DNA of 64,000 bases from Methanolobus tindarius DSM 2278. GTDB taxonomy: Archaea; Halobacteriota; Methanosarcinia; Methanosarcinales; Methanosarcinaceae. Under the pieces are notes generated by a model. That model was not told the origin of the DNA and did no database searches. It worked only from the letters and a program-made list of their open reading frames with translations. Positions within the stretch are counted from its first letter, which is position 1, and each line of letters starts with the position of its first letter. Below are positions 26,391 through 53,262 of this stretch, piece by piece. A program made the translations under genes and the position numbers. The stretch covers positions 1,028,879-1,092,878 of the forward strand of contig NZ_AZAJ01000001.1 in the NCBI RefSeq assembly GCF_000504205.1. The letters are read 5' to 3'.

Positions 26391-27152
26391 TCAAACAAGA
26401 TCATTGATGTGGGATAACTTATTGATATCAATAAGAGTGGACATTGCATTTGTCCTGATAGGAATTCCGTGTTCCTGAACAATTGCCATCGGGTTGGTAC
26501 CGCCTATTACCACGATTCCGAGATGATCGCGTTCAACCGGAACATCAAGTATTCTGGTATTCGGCTCTCCAACCTCAAGAATTCCGTTTATTCCGGCATC
26601 CACCATATCAGCCAATGTGCTGTCGATTATATCCCTGGCAACCATGGGAGCCTCACGCAGGTTTGCAAGAATCTTCCCGGAACCGGTTTTAAGCATACTC
26701 ATTACGGAAGTCAGCTCCTGTGACATGAGAACCTCAAGAGGATCAATGGTAGTGCTCTGGTATGTCAGCACGTTTGTGAAACGAACAGGTTCACCGTCGC
26801 GAATCTCCACAAGACCTCCAAAACGTGGTTTTACCATGACACCGGCTTTAAGGAGAAGACCATCGATAGTAATGCTGCACACAGTTGCAAAACCAACCTC
26901 ATCTTCACCAATCTTCCTGTCACCTATCGAGTCCCCTTCATGGAGAATCTTAAGCAACGGACTTACAGAAAGCCCGCTATTGATGGCCATACTGAATATC
27001 TTGAGAACATCATCAAAGTCCTGTTTATCAATAAGTGAAAGGTTCACGATAACATCACCTTCCATTGTTTTAGGATTGAAGGTGGTTCTGAACATCAAGT
27101 CTTCTATTTTAGATGATGTGAACTGAATACGCTGGTTCCTCTGCAAAGACAT
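26391..27152 (-). CDS. NrpR-family nitrogen regulator lacking the HTH domain (NrpRII-like)
   Basis: A 253-residue protein formed by one NrpR regulatory domain (DUF128), the 2-oxoglutarate sensor of archaeal nitrogen control: [18 protein letters not shown] (about 120-137), [16 protein letters not shown], and [19 protein letters not shown] (near 215). No winged helix precedes it. In Methanosarcina NrpRI carries the DNA-binding domain and NrpRII is a separate NRD-only partner, which this resembles. The ATG at 27152 directly abuts GAGGT; the TTG at 27146 has better spacing. NrpRI is not in the window. Confidence 0.82.
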
Positions 27153-49461: not shown

Positions 49462-51909
49462 ATGTCCAAAAGAGCAAGAGATATGGCATACAGGCACTTC
49501 AACAAAGGAGTAAGCCTCATTGAGAAAGGACAGCATGAAAATGCACTGGAGATTTTAAAACAGGCAGCTGAGCAGGCAAAGGAAGCGGATTCACCACAAA
49601 TTGAGGTTGCAGTGTTGCAGACATATGCAGACCTGTTATTTTCACAGGGAAAAAAAGAGGAAGCTCTGGAGAGATATATAAAAGCTGCAGATATTGTTGA
49701 AAATGATCCGGATTTCCTTTTGCCTGAACAGAGAGCAAATATGTTCAGTAATATGGCACTTGCACTTGAAAATACAGGAAGGAGAATTGAAGCAGGTGAC
49801 CGCTATTCCATTGCAGCACAGAACTACCGGGATCTTGTACAGAAAGACCCATCAAATAATTCTCATATTGCCAACATGGTATCTACTTTGAATAATATGG
49901 GTGCCCTTTTTGCTGAAACCGGAAAATATGACAGGGCATTTGATGCTTTTGACGAGGCTCTTAAACTCCAGGAAGGGATGGACAGTGAAACTCAGGATGA
50001 AAACAGTATTTTGCAGAAGAAAAAAACCATTCGTGAAAACTTGCTGAACATTCCTCTGGAAAACGCATCCGAAATGGAGAAGGAAAAATACGAAAAACTC
50101 CTGCAATTGTACATGGAAGAAGCAGAAAATGAAGGAGAAAAATCCCTGAAAGTTGCTGTCATACTGCAAAACAGCGCCCATGTGCTTGAAAATGAAGGGG
50201 AGAAAGATGCCGCATTCTCTAAACTGGAAGAGGCATTGGAAATTGCTTCAAAGTTTATTGATAATGAAGAAAAGGCAGAATCCGGCAGAAAGACTAGTAT
50301 TGGCATCCTGAGGGACATGAACAGGCTCCTGGAATCAGAAGAAGAAAACCAAAAACTGATGGAAAAGTATGGACTTATACTTGAAGAATCAAGAAAGATA
50401 CTTGCCTCTGAACCTGAAAACACTTCATATCAGCTAAATGTGGCTTTCTCACTGGATATCATCGGCAATCTGCTGAAAGAATCCGGCAATATAGCAGATG
50501 CAATTAGAAATATAGAAGAATCAGTAGATATTGTTGTAAATGTCCTTCAAAATGAAATTGATGATGACAGTACAATCCATGCTGCTGTAGCTATTATTGA
50601 AGATATGCTGTCTCTTGCGGAACTTGAAGAAGAGAATGAATCAAAACTTAATCTATACAGACAACTTGGAGATAAAATTGGAAAATCCGGACAGGATAAC
50701 CTTGAGCTTGGACTCATCAGTGCAGACATATGCAGAGAAACAGGACTTATCCTTGCCGAAGAAAAAAAATATCCTGAAGCCCTTGAGAATTTCAAGAAGG
50801 CCTTATCCATATATGAAACCGTAAAGCACGCAACTGGAGATGATTCAAAGATGAATGAGGTTCTGAAAAACACAGCAATGGCACAATTTGATCTTGGGCG
50901 CTATGATGAGGCTTTGATAAGCTATATGCAACTTATAAAAAGTGGAGAGACTGGAAGGGAAATTTCAGATCGTGTTGATATTATCCTTTTAGAGCTTGAA
51001 AAGAAAGCAGACAACATCGGCGATGTTGAATTTATAAGTAAAGAATATGACCGTATTCTTGAAATCAGGACTGAGCTGCTTGGCATTATGCCTGATCTGG
51101 AAGGTAAGAACGCAGGAAGAATTAAAGAGATACAGGGTAAAAAAGCAGATATAATGGTTGCAATGGGACAGTTGATAGAAGCACTTGACCTTTATGAACA
51201 ACTTCAGGAAAATGAGAAATCAGGCAGGTACATTCCAAAAATCATAAAACTGCTTGAGAAGATGGAAATGTCTGCCTCAAATGAACAGATTGATAAAAAA
51301 CTTGAAACCCTGAAATTCTTACTCTCAAAATACAATGTTCTTGTGGAAAAACACCCTGATAACATCCAGATATTATTTAACAAGGCATCGGTAATAGATG
51401 GAATTGCATATACGCTGTCCGAAAAAGGTGAGACCGAAGAATCCGGTTATATGTGTAACTACGCACTTGAAGCATATTCAGAACTTGCTGCTCTTGAACC
51501 GGAAAATATGTATCCTGTTGAAAGGATTGCAGCGCTTAACACAAGACTTGCTGAGCTGGCAGTCGGTGCCGGAATTGCAAATGAGGCTGAGCAGAGATTC
51601 CTCACTTCTCTTGAAACCTACAGGAACCTTATGAATGCTGATCCTTCCAATATTGAATATGAACTTGACCATGCAGGTGTGCTTGATGGAATGGGAGCCT
51701 TTTTCCTGAATGCAGGAATGTATGGTGAAGCGAAAAAGAGCTATGAAAATGCACTTCGTTCATACGCATCAATCATGGATCAGAATCCTGAAAACATGAC
51801 ATATAAATCATATGTGACAATCACCCTTGAGAACCTTGGATATGTGCTTGAGCTCATGGGAAGAAAAGACGACGCAAACTGGATGTATGAAAGCGCAAAA
51901 AGAATATAA
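49462..51909 (+). CDS. large cytoplasmic TPR-repeat protein
   Basis: An 815-residue helical protein with no signal peptide. TPR-like units recur throughout, e.g. YRHFNKGVSLIEKGQHENAL (near 10), SNMALALENTGRRIEAGDRY (near 94) and MVSTLNNMGALFAETGKYDR (near 136), with many spacers of irregular, charged helix (about 200-330). Glu/Lys content is high. Likely a scaffold; partner unknown. It is the third TPR gene in the island and faces away from the other two. A highly structured intergenic region follows. Confidence 0.85.
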   Translation: MSKRARDMAYRHFNKGVSLIEKGQHENALEILKQAAEQAKEADSPQIEVAVLQTYADLLFSQGKKEEALERYIKAADIVENDPDFLLPEQRANMFSNMALALENTGRRIEAGDRYSIAAQNYRDLVQKDPSNNSHIANMVSTLNNMGALFAETGKYDRAFDAFDEALKLQEGMDSETQDENSILQKKKTIRENLLNIPLENASEMEKEKYEKLLQLYMEEAENEGEKSLKVAVILQNSAHVLENEGEKDAAFSKLEEALEIASKFIDNEEKAESGRKTSIGILRDMNRLLESEEENQKLMEKYGLILEESRKILASEPENTSYQLNVAFSLDIIGNLLKESGNIADAIRNIEESVDIVVNVLQNEIDDDSTIHAAVAIIEDMLSLAELEEENESKLNLYRQLGDKIGKSGQDNLELGLISADICRETGLILAEEKKYPEALENFKKALSIYETVKHATGDDSKMNEVLKNTAMAQFDLGRYDEALISYMQLIKSGETGREISDRVDIILLELEKKADNIGDVEFISKEYDRILEIRTELLGIMPDLEGKNAGRIKEIQGKKADIMVAMGQLIEALDLYEQLQENEKSGRYIPKIIKLLEKMEMSASNEQIDKKLETLKFLLSKYNVLVEKHPDNIQILFNKASVIDGIAYTLSEKGETEESGYMCNYALEAYSELAALEPENMYPVERIAALNTRLAELAVGAGIANEAEQRFLTSLETYRNLMNADPSNIEYELDHAGVLDGMGAFFLNAGMYGEAKKSYENALRSYASIMDQNPENMTYKSYVTITLENLGYVLELMGRKDDANWMYESAKRI

Positions 51910-52320
51910 TAGGAAAATTAAGGCACTGAGTAAATGAAATGACAATAACCCCGCATTCTGATGAATGCTGTTTTACTCCCTGCCTTTGCTCATACTCCTG
52001 ATTGACAAATGGAATGTGGGTGCGTGCAACATAGAAGATATTGAGGGGGATATCTTCATCCCACATTCCTGTGCAATCCAATTCGTTTTTTAGCGGGTTT
52101 GATGATGTCCATATCGTACCATTTTGGGACATTTTCCAGTCACTCGCCTGTGTTTTGGCTGTGACTGCATTACCTACAATCACAATATACTATATAAATA
52201 TATCTACACAATTATATCTAATTATAATCATCATTATGAGGTCGTTTTGTTTCTGCATAAGACAAGTGATAACAAAAACTACAGATTAAACTCATATAAG
52301 ATTGAAATCAAGAATAGTAT
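51910..52320. other. 411-base intergenic region with four successive hairpins (possible ncRNA)
   Basis: Hairpins in order: GCATTC/GAATGC (51953-51968, loop TGAT); a nested pair with outer GGAATGTGGG (52011-52020)/CCCACATTCC (52060-52069) and inner GAAGATAT (52034-52041)/ATATCTTC (52050-52057) around loop TGAGGGGG; ATGTCC (52105-52110)/GGACAT (52127-52132); and CAGTCAC (52137-52143)/GTGACTG (52161-52167). A weak minus-strand reading frame (52183-51854) crosses them. The density of structure is not explained by any gene seen. Confidence 0.4.
52190..52204. promoter_or_regulatory. two-way TATA element
   Basis: CTATATAAATATATC at 52190-52204 can be read on both strands. On the minus strand the predicted start falls near 52168, the edge of the last hairpin; on the plus strand near 52225. 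A second element, CATATAAG near 52292-52299, is about 26 bases before the MscS GTG and may be that gene's own promoter. Confidence 0.4.
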
Positions 52321-53262
52321 GTGAGTGGGAGAAACTACATCGGAATTATCGTATTTGCTTTTATCATCCTGGCACTTTCATACATAAATTACTTCACAGC
52401 TATCGCATCTAATTATGGGGACACACTACTGAAACTCATACAGGCATCAGTCATAATAATGCTTGCATACCTGGTGAATTCCCTTATTGAAAATATCATA
52501 GGAAAACAGGTTCATGACACTAAGAACAGGTACACACTCCGTAAGGTCGTATCTGTCATAATCACTCTGCTGGCTGCCGGAGCCATAATGATAGTTTTCC
52601 TGAAAGAGACTACCACATTAATCGTAGCCTACGGAATATTAAGCGCGGGTGTTGTCATTACATTACAGGATGTTTTCCGCAGTTTTGCCGGAGGTATTGT
52701 CATCCTTTTTTCCAGGACATTTCAGGCAGGAGACCGGATACAGGTGGGCGATTGTTATGGAGATGTCCTGGATATAAATTATTTCCATACAACCCTTATG
52801 GAAATCAGAGAATGGGTTGATGGGGATCAATATACAGGCAGGATCCTCACAATGCCTAACAGTTTTGTTCTTGACAGCACTGTGAAGAACTACACACGTG
52901 ATTTTTCCTTTATATGGGACGAGGTCACAATAATATTGAGTCCCGAAAGCGACTGGAAAAAATCAAGAGACATTGCACTGCAAACCACAAACTCACTAAT
53001 CGAGGATTATGTCGAACACTCTAAGAAAGAACTTGCAAGCATGGAACGAAAATACATGTTTACATCATATGATGTTGATACAAAGATATTCCTGTTCGTC
53101 GAGAGTGACAGGATAGAGATGCATCTGAGATATGTCGTGGATACAAAGCAGAGACGATATGTAAATGACCTGCTTACACAAGGTCTGCTTGATGCTTTTG
53201 CCACTGAACCGGACATTATTATAGGTAGTATATCCAGCATTGAGATTACTAAAATGCCATAA
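52321..53262 (+). CDS. MscS-family mechanosensitive ion channel
   Basis: A 313-residue small-conductance mechanosensitive channel that releases solutes on osmotic downshock. Three or four membrane helices (about 7-26, 37-58, 75-95 and 98-112) are followed by the MscS pore-lining and beta domains: SAGVVITLQDVFRSFAGGIV (about 109-128), FQAGDRIQVGDCYGDVLDI near 136 and MPNSFVLDSTVKNYTRDF near 179. The start is the GTG at 52321; an overlapping ATG is out of frame. No ribosome binding site is seen, so translation may be leaderless. Confidence 0.9.
   Translation: MSGRNYIGIIVFAFIILALSYINYFTAIASNYGDTLLKLIQASVIIMLAYLVNSLIENIIGKQVHDTKNRYTLRKVVSVIITLLAAGAIMIVFLKETTTLIVAYGILSAGVVITLQDVFRSFAGGIVILFSRTFQAGDRIQVGDCYGDVLDINYFHTTLMEIREWVDGDQYTGRILTMPNSFVLDSTVKNYTRDFSFIWDEVTIILSPESDWKKSRDIALQTTNSLIEDYVEHSKKELASMERKYMFTSYDVDTKIFLFVESDRIEMHLRYVVDTKQRRYVNDLLTQGLLDAFATEPDIIIGSISSIEITKMP

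Follow-up and report, generated by a model that had tools for sequence, protein, structure and literature searches.

A predicted structured small RNA beside an MscS-type channel gene of Methanolobus tindarius, its multi-copy family, and a probable connection with the cold box sRNAs of Methanolobus psychrophilus

What is encoded in the 411-bp intergenic gap between a TPR-protein gene (49462-51909, plus strand) and an MscS-type channel gene (52321-53262, plus strand) of Methanolobus tindarius? Both gene names were read off the translations, and all positions refer to the window, the stretch of 64,000 nucleotides that was analysed. A first-pass annotation had noticed four consecutive perfect stems in the gap (6, 10 with an inner 8, 6 and 7 bp) and had proposed a small RNA of about 200 bases, more likely transcribed leftward; all four stems were recovered at the positions given there. 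Taken as one joint reading, we consider it likely that the interval specifies a structured non-coding sRNA that belongs to a multi-copy Methanolobus family, is induced in the cold and controls the initiation of translation. The features involved are, in the order of leftward transcription:

52216..52240, minus strand: upstream palindromic box CTCATAATGATGATTATAATTAGAT (consensus TCATNATNATNAT...ATTATATAT), the probable 'cold box', near-invariant and at fixed spacing
52192..52202, minus strand: TATA box TATATTTATAT, within the match of promoter model R1
51935..52175, minus strand: predicted small RNA with approximate ends, based on the orthologue alignment A2, the place beside the MscS gene and the lack of a conserved frame
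52137-52143/52161-52167, minus strand: hairpin H1, 7 bp (CAGTCAC/GTGACTG plus GCC/GGC)
52105-52110/52127-52132, minus strand: hairpin H2, 6 bp (ATGTCC/GGACAT), around the GGTACGATAT part of the following motif
52109..52120, minus strand: motif GGTACGATATGG, resembling a ribosome-binding site plus ATG
52072..52092, minus strand: linker AAAAAACG-AATTGGATTGCA, near-invariant in subtypes A and B (alignments A2 and A4)
52011-52020/52060-52069 (outer, 10 bp) and 52034-52041/52050-52057 (inner, 8 bp), minus strand: hairpin H3
52042..52049, minus strand: apical loop of H3, CCCCCTCA (consensus YCCCCUCA), anti-Shine-Dalgarno-like and near-invariant in type A
51988..51998, minus strand: motif GGAGTATGAGC
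51953-51958/51963-51968, minus strand: hairpin H4, 6 bp (GCATTC/GAATGC)
51941..51952, minus strand: 3' motif GGGGTTATTGTC, followed by a T-rich stretch

Known RNA families gave no explanation of these features: Rfam 15 yielded no match at the gathering score in the window, and relaxed thresholds returned for the interval only C/D-box noise far below threshold. The predicted fold of the minus strand was only mildly better than that of shuffled sequences (z = -2.20, with 4 of 200 shuffles as good; z = -1.98 for the plus strand), and therefore the single sequence gave no certainty. The initial argument that such stems are unlikely to arise by chance is thus weak when made from one sequence and becomes strong only when homologues are compared.

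The promoter was analysed by an ungapped alignment of 54 family promoters, which displays TCATNATNATNAT...ATTATATAT followed by TAGATATATTTATATAGT, and by a sequence model of the promoter unit (R1); the 54 promoters were chosen by a loose version of the box, so that the box is partly selected for, whereas the surrounding columns are not. The model replaced a strict hand-made promoter pattern, which had recovered one site only in M. psychrophilus R15. At the locus, R1 matches a 54-bp unit on the minus strand (52189-52242, E = 2.6e-13; the E-values of R1, and those of the covariance model R2 of the subtype A/B core, are rough). Across the 186 genomes of the order, the unit was found at E <= 1e-4 in 27/27 Methanolobus genomes (3-11 copies each) and in 19 genomes outside the genus, and it also precedes protein genes, which encode coiled-coil, conserved MKTERKI, small zinc-ribbon and secreted proteins. 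The TATA element had been described as two-way: its minus-strand version lies within the R1 unit, and for rightward transcription at the locus no matching promoter evidence was found. Transcription would start about 20 nt 3' of the TATA box, near 52170-52178; the TATA-to-start spacing given for M. psychrophilus in the main text of PMC5378194 is 19-22 nt. The proposed leftward RNA is supported at a length of ~200-240 nt by its orthologous promoter, its motifs, the compensatory changes in its main stem and the lack of a conserved frame, and the interval is best read as an independent intergenic RNA predicted to run for ~240 nt from ~52175 to ~51935.

The interval starts right after the stop codon of the convergent TPR gene and holds an imperfect 15-nt inverted repeat (51920-51934/51972-51986), as would be expected of a mere terminator or 3' element of that gene which gives rise to no RNA of its own. 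We regard such an origin as very improbable, since the RNA has its own promoter with a conserved box, since the conserved motifs reach some 200-330 nt past the TPR stop codon and since the paralogues adjoin other genes. The same inverted repeat encloses H4 and the 3' motif; it may pair as a fifth helix, or serve both the RNA and the TPR gene as a bidirectional terminator.

The minus strand might instead carry a small protein gene, as a frame of 109 codons (51854-52183) is open there in the window. Among the subtype A orthologues, however, 12/13 carry indels not divisible by three with respect to the window sequence, while the nucleotide motifs and stems persist, and no frame is open and aligned throughout. 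The homologues thus do not conserve the amino acids of this frame, which the first-pass annotation had named as the observation that would speak against an RNA; a conserved minus-strand protein is ruled out by the frame-shifts, and we attach a very slight probability to a protein gene of any kind in this frame. A very short peptide made from a GGUGG..AUG start may be compatible with the data.

The structure was evaluated on an alignment of 27 homologues of subtypes A and B (A4), on which only the outer stem of H3 was counted formally. A covariance analysis had been suggested at the outset as a check of the RNA, and it revealed compensatory changes at 5/10 pairs of this stem. The stem is paired in 98.1% of the cells versus 88.6% in shuffles, the doubly changed cells number 34 versus 11.4 in shuffles, and the covariation score (0.413, 0.204 when shuffled) was reached by 0/500 shuffles; the signal was lost upon shifting one arm by 1-3 columns. 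Inspection by eye indicated consistent changes in the inner H3 stem, H1, H2 and H4. In the paralogues the H1 stem is kept with its strands swapped (GUCACA..UGUGAC in type A, UGUGGCA..UGUCACA in type B); H2 is present in nearly all type A orthologues and its position is taken in other types by CCAUAU/AUAUGG around GGUGGUACG; and at the position of H4 the paralogues have a terminal hairpin of different sequence (all by eye). The C-rich apical loop is present in all types despite their differing stems.

A DNA search of the own 3.15-Mb genome recovered related non-coding stretches at four other places, in addition to promoter-only matches, so that the genome of M. tindarius holds at least five such RNAs, which have in common the promoter, the modules GGUGGUACGAUAUG, GGAGUAUGAGC and GGGGUUAUUGUC and the C-rich apical loop. 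In the leftward orientation the copies share the upstream palindromic box and a TATA element at a fixed distance from it. Most of them then contain GGTACGATATGG, AAAAACG..GGATTGCA (subtypes A and B), a long variable hairpin, GGAGTATGAGC and GGGGTTATTGTC; the copy in L011 is without the latter two. Within the 112 genomes of the taxonomic family, the signal of the RNA family was found in 27/27 Methanolobus genomes and thins rapidly beyond. The A/B core (R2) occurs in 1-4 copies in 24/27 Methanolobus genomes, and the 186 genomes of the order provided a single strong match outside the genus (G002). The RNA also precedes the MscS gene, in divergent orientation, in M. vulcani PL 12/M, M. bombayensis and one Methanolobus MAG.

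Several related copies per genome would also be expected of a MITE-like mobile miniature element that has spread through the genome. That origin was rejected and appears highly unlikely to us: the copies have diverged (their matching parts are about 70-80% identical), they start at the promoter and have no recognisable terminal repeats, and the genomic place of this copy is kept across species.

The family very probably includes the nine 'cold box' sRNAs of M. psychrophilus R15. The main text of a dRNA-seq study of that strain (PMC5378194, the only paper on cold box sRNAs that our literature search found) reports nine sRNAs that are induced in the cold, are highly conserved and have a motif located upstream of the promoter. 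Genome G044 is very probably that of R15, because its position 26,651 lies inside a PAS/HisKA/REC gene, matching the description of Mpsy_0031, and because its standalone TRAM genes are exactly four, at positions that fit the locus-tag numbers (PMC5572242). In it, R1 gives nine matches at E <= 1e-4. At least five R1 matches in this genome lead to sRNAs of this family, with transcription predicted to start about 15-25 nt downstream of positions 594,342 (+), 212,730 (-), 2,065,421 (+), 2,696,053 (+) and 446,109 (+), and others lead to protein genes; the equality of number with the nine reported sRNAs is suggestive, although some matches lead to protein genes. The published sRNAs and the present ones are alike in genus, intergenic position, conservation and the motif upstream of the promoter, and at least five family RNAs of R15 stand behind an R1 unit. 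The main text of PMC5378194 differs from the present description in that structure, modules and distribution are not part of it. Because genus, position and conservation agree, the palindromic box is the probable counterpart of the published 'cold box'. The box was also compared with the 'UP motif' described for TRAM genes of R15, three of which are cold-induced (PMC5572242); these genes lack the box (best R1 match around them E = 0.35), and an identity of the two was rejected.

The subtype of the window RNA (A) has no strong R2 match in R15 (best E = 1.3e-5), and the window RNA is therefore probably not itself among the nine but a new member of the family rather than a re-description. Its cold induction is inferred by analogy with the R15 literature.

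Three sequence motifs of the RNA are enriched genome-wide. In the 27 genomes, GGTGGTACGAT has 122 matches versus 16 for the reversed control, and it stands directly 5' of the ATG of genes for secreted proteins of 167, 218 and 500 residues and for a zinc-ribbon protein. For GTGGAGTATGAGC there are 88 matches versus 0 for the reversed control, with tandem occurrence in the sRNAs L045, L049 and L052, and for GGGTTATTGTC 195 versus 41, with four tandem copies in L052. The three motifs occur also in further small RNA-like elements besides the cold box sRNAs. Because they are found in tandem in sRNAs and are common to other RNAs and to mRNA starts, a common recogniser is suggested.

We propose that the RNA would be transcribed leftward from its own archaeal promoter, with a factor presumably binding the upstream palindromic box and low temperature probably switching the RNA on. 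It would act in trans and fold into H1-H4, with the YCCCCUCA loop exposed at the end of the long H3 stem; its single-stranded or loop motifs GGUGGUACGAUAUG, GGAGUAUG and GGGGUUAUUG may mimic ribosome-binding sites with a start codon. The motifs would then compete for the recogniser of the same mRNA sequences, be it the ribosome or a protein that binds RNA; in addition or instead, the C-rich loop could pair with Shine-Dalgarno sequences. Both modes have the control of translation initiation in common, to which we give about an even chance.

The first mode would be antisense action, in which the C-rich loop of H3 masks Shine-Dalgarno sequences, with the remaining motifs serving only for chaperone binding or RNA stability. 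Every subtype retains the loop although the stems differ, and the genus Methanosarcina offers a precedent, as masking of ribosome-binding sites has been proposed for sRNA41 and sRNA154 of M. mazei (PMC5867862). By description, these are likewise archaeal intergenic sRNAs of a related genus, but they respond to nitrogen; homology to them and to sRNA162 was assessed through the R2 model search, in which G002 alone outside Methanolobus holds a strong relative of the A/B core, and the largest genomes of the family, among the 186 genomes of the order searched, gave one weak match (G078, E = 0.009). Antisense action leaves GGUGGUACGAUAUG, GGAGUAUGAGC and GGGGUUAUUGUC unexplained, which are conserved above the stems, occur in tandem and recur in other RNAs and in mRNA leaders, and we consider this mode possible but short of probable.

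The second mode would be that of a decoy, whose repeated motifs resembling ribosome-binding sites titrate away a regulator of translation or 30S subunits that are idle. A comparable logic operates in CsrB/RsmZ of bacteria, multi-hairpin sponge RNAs with repeated motifs that resemble ribosome-binding regions; the likeness is one of working logic only (multiple hairpins, repeated motifs), as no sequence is shared and no CsrA-like partner is known for the archaeal RNA. The tandem motifs of L045, L049 and L052, the presence of the motifs in at least two further RNA classes and their position at translation starts of protein genes, some of them behind the same promoter, agree with a decoy. Against it, no binding protein is known, two motifs have an odd spacing for a ribosome-binding site (GGAG-U-AUG and GGGG-UUA-UUG are unusually short) and the sharing with mRNA starts could reflect just a strong ribosome-binding site; this mode, too, we hold only tentatively, somewhat below even chance. 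An archaeal sponge system in the wider sense, with several cold-induced RNAs per cell and mRNAs sharing one regulator (a protein or a ribosome state), seems rather unlikely to us; in it, the sRNAs would repeat the start motifs of cold box genes and of secreted-protein genes. We know of no such shared sponge logic in Archaea.

The adjustment of translation to cold in archaea without bacterial-type cold-shock proteins is poorly understood. For the cold box sRNAs, the main text of PMC5378194 gives no structure, targets or mechanism; here, the cold-induced sRNAs of that study are linked, very probably, to a family that spans the genus and has a covarying structure, a promoter unit that can be defined, and sequence modules common to sRNAs and translation starts of protein genes. 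The R15 cold box sRNAs were already known, and the subtype A member and the structure of the family are new. Structure, promoter unit and modules can each be mutated and tested in cultured Methanolobus.

Several further elements were noticed. A second, conserved small RNA-like element consists of a stem GAGCAAGGTC...GACCTTGCTC that encloses GACCAATTGAATCATAT-..GGTGGTACG-ATATGATT (L285, L296, L298 and L300, also L210, L216, L222-L224 and L235); a cold box was looked for upstream of it and none was found. A third element has repeated GGTTGGTTGG followed by GGTGGTACGATATGAACCCGGCC (L297 at G044:C1:887930, L214, L220, L227 and L237), and no cold box was found for it. A minimal element, GTGGAGTATGAGCGGGTTGGGGAGTGGGGGTTATTGTCAAAAAG..AACCCGCTCA, unites two of the sRNA motifs within one perfect hairpin (L286, L303, L181-L183, L185, L193, L199, L200, L202 and L204); L286 and L303 have a cold-box-like palindrome directly downstream of it. 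L157 and L160 are homologous cold box genes for secreted proteins and have a GGAGTATGAGC motif close to their start; the coding frame runs on from the ATG of this motif in L160 but not in L157. In another genus, four copies of GGTGGYRCGRTATGAAWGCTGC stand in tandem behind a cold-box-like promoter (L059, G033:C3:431253); after three of the copies a stop follows within a few codons, and the last copy opens a protein gene.
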